DNA of 35,615 bases from a virus. Below the pieces are notes generated by a model. It made no database searches, was not told where the DNA came from, and saw only the letters and a program-made list of their open reading frames with translations. The stretch covers positions 1-35,615 of the IMG/VR virus record IMGVR_UViG_3300027963_000014; one strand, written 5' to 3'. Each line of letters opens with the position of its first letter. Position 1 is the first letter of the stretch. The translations under genes and the position numbers were made by a program. Shown here one piece after another: positions 6,353-13,472 of the stretch.

Positions 6353-6378
6353 GTTGCAAATAAATGCAACATTTTTTT
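6353..6378 (+). terminator. AT-rich intrinsic terminator between nuclease and SSB genes
   Basis: GTTGCA (6353-6358) pairs with TGCAAC (6365-6370) around a 6-base loop, followed by A and seven Ts. The stem is short, so read-through is likely and the element probably attenuates rather than ends transcription before the SSB gene. Confidence 0.6.
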
Positions 6379-6395
6379 AAACTCGAAAGGCTCAA

Positions 6396-7001
6396 ATGCT
6401 TAATCTATCTAGTTCTTCTGGCGGTGGTAATTACATTCGCTTTATGCCATCTGCTAACGCATGGCTCAACTCAAACAAGGAAGAATTTACACCAAAGAAA
6501 ATGGTTGTCGATACTGCCAGTCTTCAGACTGGTTGGATGCACCTTGGAGAAGGTGTGCGCGACTGGCAACCAGACGCAAGTCTTGGAAAGAAGGGTGCTC
6601 AACCGTCACCAGACCACAAGCGTGGCTTCTCCATCAAGTTCTACAACAAGGAGATGGGACTCGCAGAATGGTCAGCAAACGGCACAGGTCCAAACATGGG
6701 ACTGGAGAAGCTGTGGAAGGCAATCGAAGCAGGTCAAGCAGCCAATGCTGGCAAGTTACCAGTCATTGAGTACAAAGGCTCGACGCTGGAGAAGATCGGC
6801 AAAGGCACGACTCGTATCCCTAACTTTGATGTGGTGTCGTGGATTGAGAGACCTGCTGGCATGGATGCGGTGGACGACGGCACGCAATCATTTGATAGTG
6901 ACGGCAAGATCAGCATGGCAGCACCAGCTCCAGCACCGCAACCTAAAGCAGCGCCTAAGACTGCAATGGCTCAAGCCGTCGAAGACGACGAGATGTTTTA
7001 A
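6396..7001 (+). CDS. ssb: Single-stranded DNA-binding protein
   Basis: The 201-residue protein has an OB-fold-like body without a classical bacterial SSB signature. It carries the hallmark C-terminus: a proline/alanine-rich linker (APAPAPQPKAAPK) leading to an acidic tip ending EDDEMF, comparable to the DDDIPF tip by which SSBs recruit partners. Such phage SSBs are commonly placed between a RecB-like nuclease and primase/helicase genes, as here. It would coat ssDNA during replication and recombination. AAAGG precedes ATG 6396. The gene is bracketed by hairpins at 6353 and 7014, which would set its own transcript level. Confidence 0.75.
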   Translation: MLNLSSSSGGGNYIRFMPSANAWLNSNKEEFTPKKMVVDTASLQTGWMHLGEGVRDWQPDASLGKKGAQPSPDHKRGFSIKFYNKEMGLAEWSANGTGPNMGLEKLWKAIEAGQAANAGKLPVIEYKGSTLEKIGKGTTRIPNFDVVSWIERPAGMDAVDDGTQSFDSDGKISMAAPAPAPQPKAAPKTAMAQAVEDDEMF

Positions 7002-7013
7002 CTCTTAGGAGAG

Positions 7014-7053: not shown

Positions 7054-7170
7054 ATGGAAAACACACAAGAATTTTGGATGCTGCTACTTATTGCGTTGGC
7101 TCAAAGGGTCTACGAGTTGGAGCAGAGATTAGAACAATTAGAAGGACAAGAATGCAAGCCGAACAAATAG
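7054..7170 (+). CDS. Small helical protein upstream of primase (38 aa)
   Basis: The frame begins at ATG 7054, right after the terminator U-tract, and ends TAG at 7168-7170, overlapping the primase start by 19 bp. The product MENTQEFWMLLLIALAQRV continues into a leucine/glutamate coiled coil (ELEQRLEQLEGQ), a layout I associate with tiny phage proteins of unknown function. No Shine-Dalgarno is visible, so translation may be weak. Its reading may couple to the primase-helicase. Confidence 0.5.
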   Translation: MENTQEFWMLLLIALAQRVYELEQRLEQLEGQECKPNK

Positions 7171-9197
7171 CGCAAGCGCTTGGCAACGCAAAGAAGGTAA
7201 ACGGGCAATGGATGGCGAGCTGTCCTGTAAGCAATCACGGTCAAGGTAACGGGGACAGGAATCCAAGTCTTTGCGTATCAGAGACAGACGAAGGCAAGCC
7301 GTTGTTTAAGTGCTTTAGTGGGTGCTCTCAGGAGTCTGTCTTTAATGCGGTCAAGGACTACGGTCTGCTTGACGACTTACCAAACCCGACAGACTTTCTC
7401 ACCCAGATCAAACCGTTACCGAAACAGCAAGAACCTGTGCTCGAACAGGAGTGGCACTACACCGACGAGGATGGAGTCGTCCAGCACATCAAGCAGAGAT
7501 ACAAGACCTTTGACTCCAAAGGAAAAACATACAAACAGTACCGCGTGGACGAGAACGGCAGACGGCACGCATCAATGACGGGTGCGAACATCGTGCCGTA
7601 CAACCTTCCCGAAGTGGACTTTGCACGCAAGACAGGCAGAACTGTATTCCTTTGCGAAGGCGAGAAGGCTGCCGACGCTCTCAAGTCTTTAGGTGTAGTG
7701 GCAACCTGTACGCACAACGGTGCAAGTAACTTCCCAGAAGATGTAGTTAAGCACCTAGTCGGACTCACCATTGCAATAGTCCCTGACAACGACACGGTTG
7801 GCTGGGAGTACGCAAGGAAAGCAGTTGCAGCTCTCAAGTCGGTTACAAAAAGTATCCGAGTGGTTGACCTCCAGCTCGACGAGGTGAAGGAGGACGCATA
7901 CGAGTTCGTCCACAAGTATGGCGGGGACAAGGATCGGCTGGTTGACCTGACAAAGGCAACGCAAGCAATCGCAAGTGAACTGGATGTAACGACTCCTGCA
8001 AGATTAAATAATTCTGTGGAAACACCAGTATCGGAAGAGTTGGAGCTGCCACAAGTACCGCTACAACGCGAAGGATTTAAGCTCGAAGCGTGGGACAGCA
8101 TCGAGGACGAACCAGTCGAGTGGCTAGTTAAAGGAGTCATACCGCAACGATCATTTGTGGCTTTATATGCACCGCCAGCTAGTTTCAAGTCTTTTATTGC
8201 CTTGGACATTGCCGAGTGCATCGCCACAGGCAGAGCATTCCTTGGCAACGAGATAACCCGTAAAGGCGCAGTCCTGTACATCGCAGGGGAGGGGCATGGA
8301 GGTATCGGGTCAAGGATCAAGGCACTCAAGACGCACCACAACACACCAGTTGGAGCGCCAGTCTATTTCCTCAGACGGCAGGTCAATCTCAGATCAAGTA
8401 AGACAGACCTGCAAGACCTAGTTAACGCAATAGACGACCTCAAGGCTATGGCAGAGATCAACTTTGAGCTGATCATCATTGACACCTTGGCTAGAGCATT
8501 TGGCGGTGGAAACGAGAACGCATCAGAGGATATGGGTGCATTCATTACGGCTGCTGGCGCTATACAAGGTCGGTATGAGTGTGGTCTTTTGGTAGTCCAT
8601 CACGCTGGTAAGGACGCAACCAAGGGCTTGAGAGGTCACTCCTCATTACTAGGCGCAGTAGACACAGAGCTGGAGATTATCAGGATCGAAGGCGCTAAAC
8701 CGCCAAAGGGAATACTCCATGTGTCCAAACAGAAGGACGGTGTGGACGGGCAACGCATTGGATTCAAGATGATTGAGGTCACGACTGGATCAAGTGGAAT
8801 CGTGGACTTTGACGGTGCATCCAGTCTGGCGGTTGAAGTAGACGGGGAGTTAGACACGACGGTCAAGCAGAAGGTAAAGGCTGCACCTCCAAATAGAAAA
8901 TTGAAAGGTCACGCTCAGACATTATTTGATAGTTTGCACATTGCTATTAAGAAGTTTGGCGAGATGCAGGTAGTTGATGGAATGCGAAATAAGTGCATTA
9001 CGCTGGATCAATGGAAGGCTGAATTTCGCAAAAAGGTTATTCATGGAATGAGTGAATCGACATTTACAAGGACTTTTGATAGGGTTAAGTTGAATCTTCT
9101 TAACGAGAAAAAAGTAGTAATAAATGATCCATTGGTATGGGCTGTTTTTGAAGAGAAAGATGACCACAAAGACAATGTTATTTCGTTTAATAAGTAG
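7152..9197 (+). CDS. Primase-helicase (zinc, TOPRIM and RecA-like helicase domains)
   Basis: ATG 7152 with AAGGA is chosen; a frame from 7074 starts with TTG and lacks a ribosome site. The 681-residue protein has an N-terminal zinc-finger-like set (C24, H29, C54, C58), a TOPRIM domain (E169 in FLCEGEKAAD, D212-x-D214 in PDND), and a RepA/DnaB-like ATPase with a Walker A variant PPASFKS (341-347), Walker B ELIIIDT (439-445) and VVHHAGK (481-487). Residues about 585-670 look like a winged helix (CITLDQWKAEF, ESTFTRTFDRV). It would prime and unwind phage DNA. An iteron-like repeat cluster begins one base after its stop, so the C-terminal domain may recognise it, as in P4 alpha protein. No phage DNA polymerase is present. 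Confidence 0.9.
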   Translation: MQAEQIAQALGNAKKVNGQWMASCPVSNHGQGNGDRNPSLCVSETDEGKPLFKCFSGCSQESVFNAVKDYGLLDDLPNPTDFLTQIKPLPKQQEPVLEQEWHYTDEDGVVQHIKQRYKTFDSKGKTYKQYRVDENGRRHASMTGANIVPYNLPEVDFARKTGRTVFLCEGEKAADALKSLGVVATCTHNGASNFPEDVVKHLVGLTIAIVPDNDTVGWEYARKAVAALKSVTKSIRVVDLQLDEVKEDAYEFVHKYGGDKDRLVDLTKATQAIASELDVTTPARLNNSVETPVSEELELPQVPLQREGFKLEAWDSIEDEPVEWLVKGVIPQRSFVALYAPPASFKSFIALDIAECIATGRAFLGNEITRKGAVLYIAGEGHGGIGSRIKALKTHHNTPVGAPVYFLRRQVNLRSSKTDLQDLVNAIDDLKAMAEINFELIIIDTLARAFGGGNENASEDMGAFITAAGAIQGRYECGLLVVHHAGKDATKGLRGHSSLLGAVDTELEIIRIEGAKPPKGILHVSKQKDGVDGQRIGFKMIEVTTGSSGIVDFDGASSLAVEVDGELDTTVKQKVKAAPPNRKLKGHAQTLFDSLHIAIKKFGEMQVVDGMRNKCITLDQWKAEFRKKVIHGMSESTFTRTFDRVKLNLLNEKKVVINDPLVWAVFEEKDDHKDNVISFNK

Positions 9198-9318
9198 TCG
9201 GACAAATGGGGACAAATGGTGGACAAATGGTGGACAGTTGTCTCGCCATTTGTCCGAGGATTTCGGACAGACAAATGGTGTGTGTGTATGTAATACACAC
9301 CATCTGTCCGTTGTCCGA
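9198..9318. repeat. Iteron-like repeat cluster GGACAAATGG, candidate replication origin
   Basis: GGACAAATGG occurs at 9200-9209, 9210-9219 and 9221-9230, with a partial copy at 9232. An inverted copy lies at 9246-9255; extended to CCATTTGTCCGA it is the exact complement of 9198-9209. A further degenerate forward copy is at 9263-9279, and an inverted one at 9300-9310 plus TTGTCCGA at 9311-9318. The last pair forms a long imperfect palindrome around ATGTAAT. The cluster starts directly after the primase-helicase stop. It could be its origin or a multi-site operator for the 9368 gene. Confidence 0.75.
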
Positions 9319-9367
9319 GTGGTTGCCATGTGTATTTTTTTAATTATTGCGTTGGAAGGATTTTGAG

Positions 9368-10057
9368 ATGTCTAAAAAGAGTTTGAAGAAAGTTGTTGGT
9401 GGTCTAAAACAGCCAGATTTCCCGATGAATGCTTTTGATGTATTTATGAATTCGAGGTTGGTTGAGCTGTCTGTGGTGAAGAGAGACCACGAAAAGCGTT
9501 GGGGCATCAATCGCTTGATCGAGTTGGTGGACTCTGAGTTTCGGATCAAGGTGTGGCGACAGGCTGAACGAGTGTTCGAGGCTTCGGTGTCCAGAGATGA
9601 GGTGAAGCTGGATCGTGCGGTTGGTGGCATGGTCAAGGCTTACGCAGCTCTTGAAGCGTGGGCGGTCGAGAACGGTGTGCCTGAGATGCCAGCGATAGTT
9701 GCCGTTGAGCATGAGATGCAGGACGGGTCGGTGATGGTGGTCGTTGGTACACATCACGACGCGACGCTTTACCAGCAGTTCAGACCCGATGTCCAGAACA
9801 GACACATCTGGACGATGGAAGAGCTGGAGCTGATCATGGAGTCGCCAGTTCTCAAGGAGACCATGAAGATTAAGGCTTTGATTCCTTGTGCTGCAATGGT
9901 CAGGCTGGACAAGGACGCGAAGGAGTTTCCGATGGGTGGTGCGACGGGCTTTGATGATGTCAAGTCTGACGAGCTGGAGGCTTCGTCATTGCCGAAAGTC
10001 TTTGACACCAGCAAGATAGGCAAAAATAGGGCTAACAAGGCTTTGGAGGAGATTTAA
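9368..10057 (+). CDS. Unknown phage protein (229 aa)
   Basis: ATG 9368 follows GGAAGGA at 7-base spacing; an in-frame TTG at 9347 is not preferred. The product is predicted mostly helical in its first half (residues 20-110, charged, including VVKRDHEKRWGINRLIELV) and mixed in its second half, with VAVEHEMQDGSVMVVVG as a likely beta hairpin and a basic C-terminus (KIGKNRANKALEEI). No catalytic motif or family is recognised. It is placed between the iteron cluster and the terminase small subunit, so a replication or packaging accessory role is possible. The iteron cluster may act as its regulatory region. Confidence 0.75.
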   Translation: MSKKSLKKVVGGLKQPDFPMNAFDVFMNSRLVELSVVKRDHEKRWGINRLIELVDSEFRIKVWRQAERVFEASVSRDEVKLDRAVGGMVKAYAALEAWAVENGVPEMPAIVAVEHEMQDGSVMVVVGTHHDATLYQQFRPDVQNRHIWTMEELELIMESPVLKETMKIKALIPCAAMVRLDKDAKEFPMGGATGFDDVKSDELEASSLPKVFDTSKIGKNRANKALEEI

Positions 10058-10114: not shown

Positions 10115-10546
10115 ATGGCTGGGAGACCAAAACGCAAAGCAGACTTGGCTGCACTTGATTCTTTGCCGAAGGAACATATCGTGTCGATGCTTGAGGCTGG
10201 ACAGCCGATTGCTCGCATCTGTTACGCGCTTGGAGTTGGTCGCGTTGCACTCGAAGATTGGCTCAATAAACCAGAGAACGAAGGTCTCTCCTCGCGTGCG
10301 CGCGCGAAGGCTGCGGATGACATGGTAGCAGAAAGCATACTAATTGCTGACGAAACAGATGTGGAAGAGGTACAAAAGGCTAGATTACGGGTGCAAACGC
10401 GCCAATGGGTGGCTGAAAGATGGAATCCAGCAGCGTATGCGCAGAACAAAATGCCTTCGGTGCAGGTCAATTTGTCTGGAATGCGACTGGACGCGTTGCG
10501 TCGGATCGAGGTCGTCGAAGATGTATCCACAGACAAGTTGTCCTAG
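10115..10546 (+). CDS. terS: Terminase small subunit
   Basis: The 143-residue protein begins MAGRPKRKAD, has a helix-turn-helix at about residues 23-50 (LEAGQPIARICYALGVGRVA), and a helical stretch with ARLRVQTRQWVAERWNPAAY (89-108). That last motif is characteristic of a widespread family of phage small terminases. It would recognise the packaging site and load the large subunit at 10843. The gene is separated from the large subunit by nearly 300 bp holding DnaA boxes and a C-rich leader, unusual for a terS-terL pair. GGAGGG precedes the ATG. Confidence 0.8.
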   Translation: MAGRPKRKADLAALDSLPKEHIVSMLEAGQPIARICYALGVGRVALEDWLNKPENEGLSSRARAKAADDMVAESILIADETDVEEVQKARLRVQTRQWVAERWNPAAYAQNKMPSVQVNLSGMRLDALRRIEVVEDVSTDKLS

Positions 10547-10648
10547 TTATCCACATTTGTGTTGAAACTGGCAAAGTTATCCACAAAAACGCTTACAAAC
10601 TTGTGGATAACAGCAAAATAACTTTACATAATGAACATAGTGTAAAGT
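10523..10648. other. DnaA-box cluster with adjacent palindrome, candidate origin
   Basis: TTATCCACA, the consensus DnaA box, occurs at 10547-10555 and 10577-10585 (30 bp apart) and inverted at 10602-10610. A near match, GTATCCACA, is at 10523-10531. A palindrome ACTTTACA-N12-TGTAAAGT at 10621-10648 and a short one GACAAGTTGTC at 10532-10542 accompany them. The sequence then becomes AT-rich. The first box lies inside the 3' end of the small terminase gene. The cluster suggests host DnaA-dependent initiation or DnaA-mediated regulation. Confidence 0.7.
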
Positions 10649-10703
10649 AGGTGTAGAGATTAGTATTCATTTCTGCTTGTTTTCTGCTGACTGATTAGGG
10701 TTT

Positions 10704-10842
10704 ACCCCCCCCTTCGATCTGCGCGACGGGGCTGGCTGAAACTGCACCCCGATAGATACCGAACCCACACCCCCCGCACCCCCCTACTCACACCGCCACA
10801 CTCCCACAAAAAAAATAAAAAAAATCAAGGCACAATTCCCAC
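10704..10842 (+). promoter_or_regulatory. C-rich, G-poor leader before large terminase (rut-like), with hairpin
   Basis: No gene is seen here. The stretch holds a run of nine Cs near 10704-10712, a CGGGG...CCCCG hairpin at 10727-10751, a very C-rich and G-poor segment at 10752-10805, and two A-tracts at 10808-10825. C-rich, G-poor unstructured RNA is what Rho binds, so this may be a Rho-dependent control point between early and late genes. It could also contain the packaging site. The terL ATG has only a distant AAGG as ribosome site. Confidence 0.4.
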
Positions 10843-12342
10843 ATGACGACAGAATCAACTGCACCAGTAAAAAAGGGACTACACCCACAGGTCAAGGAGA
10901 CGCTAGACCGCATCCACGACAAGCGACAAGACGAACTCTCCAAAAATCCCTTTGTTGCGTTCACCATACGCTACAAGAACAATCCAGTCCTCTTCGTCAA
11001 GGAAGTCTTAAATGCCAACCCCGACACTTGGCAAGAAACCTTCCTAACGCACATCGCAAAGGGCAACCGACGCATATCTGTCAGGTCAGGGCATGGCGTG
11101 GGAAAGTCCACAGCAGCGAGCTGGGCGATCATCTGGTACTTACTTCTCAGATACCCCGTCAAGGTGGTGGTAACAGCACCCACATCCAGCCAGCTATACG
11201 ACGCGCTCTTTGCGGAACTAAAGCGCTGGGTGAAGGAACTGCCTGAGACCCTGCGCGATATGCTCGAAGTCAAGCAGGACAGGATCGAGGTCAAGGAGGC
11301 AGCGACAGAGGCTTTCGTGTCCGCAAGGACTTCAAGGGCAGAGCAGCCCGAAGCCCTGCAAGGTGTCCACAGCGAGAATGTGATGCTGGTGGCTGACGAG
11401 GCATCGGGTATCCCAGAGGCAGTCTTTGAGGCTGCTGCTGGCTCGATGTCTGGACACAATGCCGTCACCCTTCTGCTGGGCAACCCTGTACGCTCTAGCG
11501 GGTTCTTTTACGACACCCAGAACCGACTCGCAAATGACTGGGTGACGATGAAGGTGAGCTGCAAAGACTCGCCAAGGGTCAGCGATGCCTATGTCGAAGA
11601 GATGAAGGCGCGGTACGGTGAAGAGTCGAATGCCTACCGAATAAGGGTACTGGGCGAATTTCCAAGGTCTGACGACGACACCATCATCCCGATGGAGTTA
11701 CTGGAGCTGGCAAAGCACCGCGATGTCGAGACATCTCAGCACGCAAAACTGATCTGGGGTCTGGATGTCGCACGCTTTGGTGGCGACAGGTCTGCACTCT
11801 CGAAAAGACAGGGCAACGCGCTCATAGAACCCACAAAGACTTGGAAAAATCTTGATTTGATGCAACTCACAGGCGCTGTCGTCGCAGAGTGGGAAGCACT
11901 ACCGCCAAGCCAGAGACCGCACGAGATCATGGTGGACTCGATTGGACTTGGTGCTGGCGTAGTAGACCGTCTCAGAGAACTCGGTCTTCCCGCTAGAGGC
12001 ATCAATGTCTCAGAGTCCCCCGCGATGGGTACGACTTACAGGAATCTAAGGGCAGAGCTTTGGTACAAGGCGAAGGCATGGTTTGAGGCGCGTGACTGCC
12101 GTATCCCCAATGACGAGGAGCTGGTGGCTGAACTGGCTACCGTCAGGTACTTCTTTAGCAGCGCGGGGAAGATGCAGGTCGAGGGCAAGGACGACATCAG
12201 AAAGCGTGGCTTGAAATCCCCCGACAAGGCTGACTCGTTTGTGTTGACCTTTGCGAGTGACGCTGCCGTCTCTATGTTTGGTGCGAATACAAGCCAGAAG
12301 TGGTCTCAGCCGTTGAAAAGAAACCTGTCAAGGGTTGCATAA
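10843..12342 (+). CDS. terL: Terminase large subunit (ATPase and nuclease)
   Basis: The 499-residue protein has the two TerL domains. The ATPase part has Walker A SGHGVGKST (82-90), a likely coupling/adenine-binding region VVVTAPTSSQ (108-117) and Walker B VMLVADE (180-186) with the catalytic glutamate E186. The RNase H-like nuclease has D308 in WGLDVARFGGD, D365 in IMVDSIGLG and a late acidic site D461/D464 in SPDKADS. It cuts concatemers or circles and pumps DNA through the portal. Its length is usual for the family. The headful or cohesive-end mode cannot be read from sequence. Confidence 0.95.
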   Translation: MTTESTAPVKKGLHPQVKETLDRIHDKRQDELSKNPFVAFTIRYKNNPVLFVKEVLNANPDTWQETFLTHIAKGNRRISVRSGHGVGKSTAASWAIIWYLLLRYPVKVVVTAPTSSQLYDALFAELKRWVKELPETLRDMLEVKQDRIEVKEAATEAFVSARTSRAEQPEALQGVHSENVMLVADEASGIPEAVFEAAAGSMSGHNAVTLLLGNPVRSSGFFYDTQNRLANDWVTMKVSCKDSPRVSDAYVEEMKARYGEESNAYRIRVLGEFPRSDDDTIIPMELLELAKHRDVETSQHAKLIWGLDVARFGGDRSALSKRQGNALIEPTKTWKNLDLMQLTGAVVAEWEALPPSQRPHEIMVDSIGLGAGVVDRLRELGLPARGINVSESPAMGTTYRNLRAELWYKAKAWFEARDCRIPNDEELVAELATVRYFFSSAGKMQVEGKDDIRKRGLKSPDKADSFVLTFASDAAVSMFGANTSQKWSQPLKRNLSRVA

Positions 12343-12541: not shown

Positions 12542-12951
12542 TGGACTATCAGTTCCAGCAGTTCTTAGGGTTGCTGTCTGATCCTGAGTCTGTCAAAAGA
12601 ATGCAAGACGAGGCGCGTCTTCGCGCTAACGACTATGAGCGCATGGCTTATCAAAAGTATGGCGAAGATAGGGGAAGCGTGCAGCTTAATGGCAATATGG
12701 TTGCAATACCAGATGGCTTTGCTGGCGGTGGAAGAATATCTGGCGCAATACCTCTTACCGAAGAGCAGCGCTTAATACTTGGCTTAACTGGTGGCGGTTA
12801 CCGTTCTAGATACGGTGGAGACTTAAAGGCGCAGGGCTTAGACGCAATGATCCAAGGAAATGATCAGTCGTTTGGCGTGCAGTACAACAGACCTCAACCT
12901 AATAACCCAGCCATACCGCGCTGGATGTTGAATTATTCAAGGAGTTTTTAA
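12541..12951 (+). CDS. Hypothetical protein (136 aa)
   Basis: The ATG shares a base with the previous TAA (TAATG), and the gene ends in the same way before the next. The N-terminal half is charged and helical (PESVKRMQDEARLRANDYER). The C-terminal half is glycine, asparagine and proline-rich (GFAGGGRISG, GLTGGGYRSRYGG, NRPQPNNPAIP) and probably disordered or beta-rich. No family recognised. The position among small post-terminase genes suggests a minor virion or assembly protein. Confidence 0.7.
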   Translation: MDYQFQQFLGLLSDPESVKRMQDEARLRANDYERMAYQKYGEDRGSVQLNGNMVAIPDGFAGGGRISGAIPLTEEQRLILGLTGGGYRSRYGGDLKAQGLDAMIQGNDQSFGVQYNRPQPNNPAIPRWMLNYSRSF

Positions 12952-13472
12952 TGGCTACCTCATACCCCAAGAGCTTGCAAGGCGCAATGGATCAGATGAT
13001 GAATCAGAATGACACATCAAGCTGTCCAGCTCCCACGCAAGACATCACCCTTAATCTCAAAAACCGCGCCAAGGCGATCACGACTGCGAAGTATGGTCCT
13101 GAGAACCCCAATCTGCCTAACGAGGCATTCTGGAGACGCAAGGCTGATACTTGGGATGCGTCGATTGACGACGCTAAGAAGAGTCGCTGCGGGAACTGCG
13201 CAGCGTTTAATGTCTCCGACAAGATCAAGCAATGCATTGCCGACGGCATCGGCAACGAAGCAGACCCGTGGGGAACTATCAAACTCGCTGACTTAGGGTA
13301 TTGCGAGATATTTGACTTCAAGTGCGCAGCCAGTAGAACCTGTGATGCTTGGGTTGTTGGTGGTCCAAACAAGGGCGAAGGCAACTCAGGAGATGGCGAA
13401 GACATGGGCGACGGTGAGGACGACAGCGAAGGCGAGTCCTTGATCAGCATCAAAATTGGTGGAAAGGACTAA
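12951..13472 (+). CDS. Cysteine protein with HiPIP-like iron-sulfur signature
   Basis: The 173-residue protein has six spaced cysteines: C80-x2-C83 in RCGNCAAF, C95, C118 in LADLGYCEIF, C125, and C131 in RTCDAW. The segment L-x3-G-Y-C-x2-F followed 13 residues later by C-x2-W closely matches the second half of high-potential iron-sulfur proteins (GC-x2-F...WC-x2-W), and CGNC resembles their CxNC start. The gap between the halves is longer than usual. The N-terminus (YPKSLQGAMDQMM, CPAPTQDITLNLKNRAKAI) and acidic glycine-rich C-terminus are extra. It may bind a 4Fe-4S cluster or other metal; role unknown. AAGGAG precedes the ATG. Confidence 0.7.
   Translation: MATSYPKSLQGAMDQMMNQNDTSSCPAPTQDITLNLKNRAKAITTAKYGPENPNLPNEAFWRRKADTWDASIDDAKKSRCGNCAAFNVSDKIKQCIADGIGNEADPWGTIKLADLGYCEIFDFKCAASRTCDAWVVGGPNKGEGNSGDGEDMGDGEDDSEGESLISIKIGGKD

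Follow-up and report, generated by a model that had tools for sequence, protein, structure and literature searches.

A short repeat array lies directly behind the primase-helicase gene of a tailed phage, and it probably serves as a cis-acting replication element and as the docking site of the phage's own primase-helicase, the reader and its site being swapped among relatives as one cassette. The array occupies positions 9198-9319 of the window, by which we mean the whole 35,615-bp stretch of viral DNA analyzed here. It sits between the stop codon of the primase-helicase gene (9195-9197), whose very next base is the first base of the array, and the following gene (the 9368 gene). Judged from sequence comparison, the C-terminal domain (CTD) of the protein very likely binds the array, and the array itself is likely to be the origin or an essential replication element. 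At the nucleotide level the window matches no known phage, and a scan of genome contigs by alignment found no host or prophage relative.

Table 1. Features of the window around the repeat array and the evidence on which each was placed.
Feature	Position	Strand	Basis
TOPRIM/zinc-ribbon primase fused to RepA-like (AAA_25) helicase	7152..9197	+	Pfam, PHROG, PDB
C-terminal winged-helix domain (CTD, predicted), residues 601-707	8874..9194	+	AlphaFold2, Foldseek, covariation
Predicted recognition helix H3, residues 661-677	9054..9104	+	AlphaFold2, residue-array association
Three forward units GGACAAATGG	9198..9230 (starts 9200, 9210, 9221)	+	Sequence
Exact inverted 12-mer CCATTTGTCCGA	9246..9257	-	Sequence
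Unit-hairpin-inverted unit palindrome (GACAAATGGTGTGTGTGTATGTAATACACACCATCTGTC), 45 bp, imperfect	9267..9311	.	Repeats and folding
AT-rich tract, 80% A+T, 99.6th percentile of window	9323..9347	.	Composition
DnaA-box cluster: GTATCCACA (+) and three perfect TTATCCACA (+ 10547, + 10577, - 10602)	10523..10610	.	

The original prediction had described three forward copies, an inverted copy and a palindrome after the primase-helicase stop, and all of these were located as claimed. The forward copies of GGACAAATGG (9200-9209, 9210-9219 and 9221-9230) are spaced by 10 and 11 bp, and the exact inverted 12-mer is the counterpart of TCGGACAAATGG at 9198-9209. A second forward/inverted pair (9267-9283 and 9295-9311) has arms of 17 nt that are 88% complementary across an 11-nt gap, and additional half-copies are found at 9232-9236 (GGACA), 9264-9269 (CGGACA) and 9311-9318 (TTGTCCGA). 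All four exact copies of the unit in the whole window fall inside the array. With one mismatch allowed there are 10 matches against 2.7 expected, six of them within 9200-9309, and none of 100 shuffles reached 10. The array is also the densest repeat cluster of the window; no other 130-bp stretch carries a 9-mer at least four times. The AT-rich tract just beyond it is a possible melting element.

The gene preceding the array encodes a primase and a helicase in one protein. Its open reading frame extends upstream to TTG 7074, but the start is likely ATG 7152 (MQAEQIAQ...), which is preferred because it aligns with the start of relatives. The AAA_25 RecA-fold helicase core is recognized by Pfam (E 6e-40), and residues 31-297 match the DNA primase family PHROG 6088 (E 6e-20), as well as PHROG 47. 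The sole sequence relative of the helicase core in the PDB is RSF1010 RepA (1g8y, E 1.7e-6). An AlphaFold2 model of the last 116 residues, built from a 30-sequence alignment, has the fold order H-E-E-H-H-E-E with a core pLDDT of about 77-90, i.e., a predicted winged helix. Foldseek searches with this model returned winged-helix domains (ORC, CRP, KAT6A) at weak E-values, all at or above 0.05.

Loss of the repeats from close relatives that keep the primase had been named as evidence against a replication role. The array is instead retained, often with a changed unit: in IMG/VR relatives of 60-90% identity it sits in the same gap between the primase stop and the next gene. After removal of copies, the first clade comprises 73 distinct loci, the window included (72 relatives; IMG/VR), and a search with the C-terminal domain led to a second clade of 34 distinct loci. 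Across both clades the units are GGACAAATGG, GTCTACATATGG, GAGACGAATGG, ATAGACGAATGG, GATAGAT, CCACAAA, CTACAAA, GTGAATATGG and TCGAAAATGG. First-clade loci fall into the classes GGACA (48 loci), GTCTAC (19, including three with just two exact copies that were assigned by eye), GAGACG (3), ATAGACG (2) and GATAGAT (1). The layout is kept throughout this clade while the unit varies, and copies in both orientations change together. Second-clade arrays are built of CCACAAA, CTACAAA, GTGAATATGG or TCGAAAATGG, the last two being carried by second-clade backbones with an unrelated CTD. For instance, L316-L327 and L330 have a backbone 75-85% identical to that of the CCAC clade, an unrelated CTD and a GTGAATATGG array, which is a whole-domain replacement. 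One relative of 36 kb (contig IMGVR_UViG_3300042362_000028, loci L335 and L339) has a primase gene that spans both contig ends with overlapping residues, and it therefore looks circular or terminally redundant.

Exchange of the unit is matched by change in the CTD. Among locus pairs whose backbones are 85-95% identical, 484 share the unit and 246 differ in it, and the two groups have nearly the same mean backbone identity (0.908 and 0.907). Between residue 31 and about residue 570 almost all bins show equal identity in the two groups, as does the whole of the downstream 9368 gene, whereas different-unit pairs are lower by 0.18-0.28 in every 15-residue bin of residues 601-705. The two genes upstream show no effect of the unit (0.73 vs. 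0.75 and 0.90 vs. 0.89), and they were rejected as array binders for want of covariation. The partial Mantel correlation between array distance and CTD distance, given backbone distance, is 0.65, a value exceeded by none of 2000 permutations, even within clusters of less than 5% backbone distance. Joint change of the repeats and the protein tail, against otherwise constant surroundings, argues that the protein reads the repeats. To fit the backbone trees, the unit must have changed at least 13 times in the first clade and 10 times in the second, with fewer changes forced by the well-supported branches alone, and the CTD-array cassette has therefore moved often. Locus L248 has a window-like CTD and likewise carries a GGACAAATGG array. 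Counting against a simple correspondence, the window CTD is just 56% identical to that of L005 despite nearly identical arrays, and the two CTDs share Asp at residue 669.

Part of this covariation comes from linked inheritance alone, because the CTD and the array are neighbors. Taken to its limit, this would make the array a passenger that recombines with the 3′ end of the adjoining gene, an exchange that is evident in these genomes, and the covariation would reflect linkage only. Such an account is very improbable: the following gene borders the array just as directly and does not covary, the association is strongest in H3 and picks out a single residue, and arrays recur in distant phages.

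Recognition by the protein's own CTD had been predicted originally, and the covariation, confined to the CTD and peaking in the recognition helix, supports this. Among 395 variable columns ranked by how strongly they associate with the array, the CTD accounts for 28 of the first 30. The top column is residue 667, which is Ala in 47 of 48 GGACA loci and Leu or Val in all GTCTAC loci; residues 669, 670, 673 and 674 of H3 rank high as well. In the second clade, the three array classes, whose thresholds were chosen after the data were seen, are told apart by a single CTD column, the slot of residue 669: Gly in 14/14 CCAC loci, Leu in 8/8 CTAC loci and Ser in 3/3 mixed loci (25/25 loci). Phylogenetically independent pairs that set Gly or Leu against CCAC or CTAC number just three, all concordant (p 0.25). 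Residues 667 and 669 are thus candidates for specificity determinants, and the pairing of Leu with a thymine in place of cytosine would fit a methyl-group contact. The arrays of L273-L296 and L301-L339 form a near-perfect natural series from CCACAAA (Gly) through mixed (Ser) to CTACAAA (Leu), possibly a stepwise path of specificity change.

The second half of the array folds strongly. As single-stranded DNA, 9240-9325 folds far better than shuffled sequences on both strands (z -5.3 and -5.8), and stem sequences differ among relatives with both sides changed, in pairs that were partly selected for pairing. The count of covarying hairpin pairs is not independent evidence, since pairing was itself the criterion for picking the inner six pairs; in some loci the selected stem fell outside the array. 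A hairpin of this strength, albeit computed as DNA, together with stems that vary on both sides, could mean that the array acts as RNA, for example as an attenuator or processing site, with the covariation of copies reflecting pairing. There is little chance of this: the unit is kept in at least three forward copies for each inverted one, which exceeds what pairing demands, and such a role would not account for the tie to the recognition helix. An Rfam search of the array also found no family at threshold, only sub-threshold chance matches to miRNAs.

A similar arrangement is found well beyond the two clades. Arrays at the 3′ gene end, built of a unit particular to each phage, also occur in nine more distant phages with RepA-like primase-helicases: Alteromonas XX1924 (GGTTCA), Idiomarinaceae 1N2-2 (CGGTACA), Salicola CGphi29 (GGGGACA), Manatee Spring ct3Oc712 (TGGGACA), Roseobacter CRP-406 (GCTGGAA), Roseobacter CRP-811 (L347; CTACAAA), Roseobacter CRP-821 (L355; GTATAAA), Rhizobium N65 (GGCGGAGAT) and Vibrio 1.076.O (CGGACA). 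In all nine, repeat density across the fetched region peaks within about 130 bp of the stop, and most of them also have the unit-hairpin-inverted-unit element. CRP-811 and CRP-821 present a similar picture in cultured phages, with helicase parts 97-100% identical, tails 67-77% identical and different units; parts of their N-termini differ as well. Both have the gene order PD-(D/E)XK nuclease, ssDNA-binding protein, primase-helicase, array, and by synteny with them the window ORF at 6364-7008 likely encodes an ssDNA-binding protein. With single sequences on one side of the hhalign comparison, the helicase tail of Vibrio 1.076.O showed no homology to the window CTD. Among the AAA_25 phages examined, at least eight have no gene-end array (Caulobacter GB2A, Manatee ctyzp037, Mycobacterium Ariel, Gordonia Widow, E. 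coli BUCT618, Vibrio 1.123.O and 1244, and Yersinia X1), and Microcystis JY30, Manatee ct76p945 and a Salmonella houtenae prophage were ambiguous.

Several known replication systems resemble parts of this arrangement. The origin of plasmid RSF1010, oriV, has iterons and hairpins, and RSF1010 RepA is related to the helicase core described here; however, initiator, helicase and primase are separate proteins in the RepA/RepC/RepB′ system. The analogy to phage P4 drawn in the original prediction is sustained at the level of layout. P4 alpha likewise joins primase, helicase and a C-terminal DNA-binding domain in one protein, and the direct and inverted type-1 iterons of crr (8-10 bp) begin 46 bp past the alpha stop (NC_001609). 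The repeat unit differs, and the other array of P4, about 4.5 kb from crr, has no counterpart among exact unit matches in the window (a record that may be incomplete). For homology to P4 alpha, hhalign gave a probability under 1% both for the CTD, with single sequences on one side, and for the full-length protein. In plasmid pRN1 and in BIP-1, a primase-helicase with a C-terminal winged helix is followed by a stem-loop 3′ of the gene. The pRN1 stem-loop is required, and protein binding to it could not be shown (PMC4234260); unlike here, these systems have an archaeo-eukaryotic primase, an SF3 helicase and no iterons.

Closer in layout are the satellites and islands. SaPI Rep and SCCmec Cch2 use their CTDs to bind iterons that follow their own genes (PMC7581432), and the PICI ori is located 3′ of rep (PMC6092414), so that, as in the window, iterons stand immediately 3′ of the initiator gene (PMC7581432, PMC6092414). 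Their helicases belong to other families (DUF927, D5/Primase_C), and their hosts are satellites or islands rather than a ~36-kb tailed phage. The PICI ori places two iteron sets around an AT-rich core; the window has two iteron sets with the hairpin inside the second and the AT-rich tract beyond both. Another example is the PLE satellites of Vibrio cholerae, in which the DNA-binding domain of RepA covaries with ori while the rest of the protein is conserved. By experiment this domain works only with its cognate ori, and its exchange is modular, a likely response to Odn, a nuclease that mimics it (PMC8263062). PLE RepA differs in that it is a RepA_N initiator, recruits the replisome through a separate domain, is not fused to a primase-helicase and has ~30-bp semi-palindromic iterons.

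These precedents bear on whether the array could be an operator through which the primase-helicase controls transcription, either of its own operon or of the late genes and the 9368 gene, and which plays no direct part in replication. Tandem and inverted sites between two same-strand genes would suit such a role, and no terminator was found between the primase-helicase and 9368 genes, for which reason a transcription terminator was rejected as an explanation of the array. An operator is nevertheless unlikely: the array lies behind rather than before the gene of its presumed binder, 9000-9500 contains no promoter-like site, and in the measured cases DNA-binding domains that are linked to a helicase and accompanied by 3′ iterons bind origins (PMC7581432, PMC6092414). 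The specific alternative offered originally, an operator for the 9368 gene, is unsupported because that gene does not covary with the array, and it was rejected.

For the preferred reading, in which the array is a replication element read by the primase-helicase, we infer physical binding, origin activity and roles for the hairpin and the AT-rich tract as follows. The winged helix of the CTD would bind the direct and inverted units as double-stranded DNA, gathering RepA-like helicase rings with their attached primase at one spot. Melting might then begin either in the neighboring AT-rich tract or within the unit-hairpin-unit palindrome, the single strand of which may serve priming, and the host polymerase would carry on. 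CTD and array would be one cassette, exchanged among phages whose replication genes are otherwise conserved, and each exchange would alter origin specificity and leave the enzyme unchanged.

We lean towards a wider reading as well: tailed phages with RepA-like primase-helicases may share a widespread origin class, unnamed in the open-access papers that were searched, although an earlier description of the layout may exist elsewhere. This class would combine a phage-specific array of short units and a unit-hairpin-unit element, both placed where the gene ends, with a swappable winged-helix CTD as reader, and domain and array would travel as one cassette that switches often. Switching would probably serve escape from cross-recognition of origins or from origin-directed attack by competitors, and the swaps hint at selection as the force behind changes of origin type in phages, which has been shown for PLE satellites against the Odn nuclease (PMC8263062). 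If so, natural variants would let a protein-DNA code be resolved to a single residue and a single base, and the natural swaps would be a ready data set on change of DNA specificity in winged helices. Most tailed phages have no mapped origin. In the present case, sequence is enough to name the likely origin together with its reader, both in uncultured phages and in cultured ones of Roseobacter, Alteromonas, Idiomarinaceae, Salicola, Rhizobium and Vibrio/Shewanella.

A second candidate element lies 1.35 kb downstream of the array, outside it and right after a terminase small-subunit-like ORF. Three to four DnaA boxes with conserved spacing occur there in most loci of both clades, and they make doubtful the original suggestion that the phage manages without a separate initiator. 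This cluster is possibly a second element, a rival origin or melting site, or a late-promoter switch. Nor does GC skew, proposed as a check, turn at 9.2 kb; it follows gene direction and changes sign near 10.6 kb. P4, for its part, requires both ori and crr for replication. Both elements are annotated in its record (NC_001609). Together these points make it possible, if less probable than origin function at the array, that the array is an accessory element like crr, where the protein docks while melting and first priming occur elsewhere, most likely by host DnaA at the DnaA boxes with their AT-rich flank (10523-10843). The boxes could, however, equally regulate a late promoter before the terminase gene, and it is the array itself that recurs in the nine distant phages, which were surveyed for arrays only. 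In relatives the DnaA-box cluster is followed by a conserved AACTT(T/A)ACATAATG block. The noncoding gap between the terminase small- and large-subunit genes (10650-10842), where GC skew turns sharply negative, contains C runs (CCCCCCCC, CACCCCCCGCACCCCCC) that are conserved in relatives, and it is a possible packaging site. Further downstream, relatives of the ORF at 12951-13472 carry the annotation "high potential iron-sulfur protein" in phage records.
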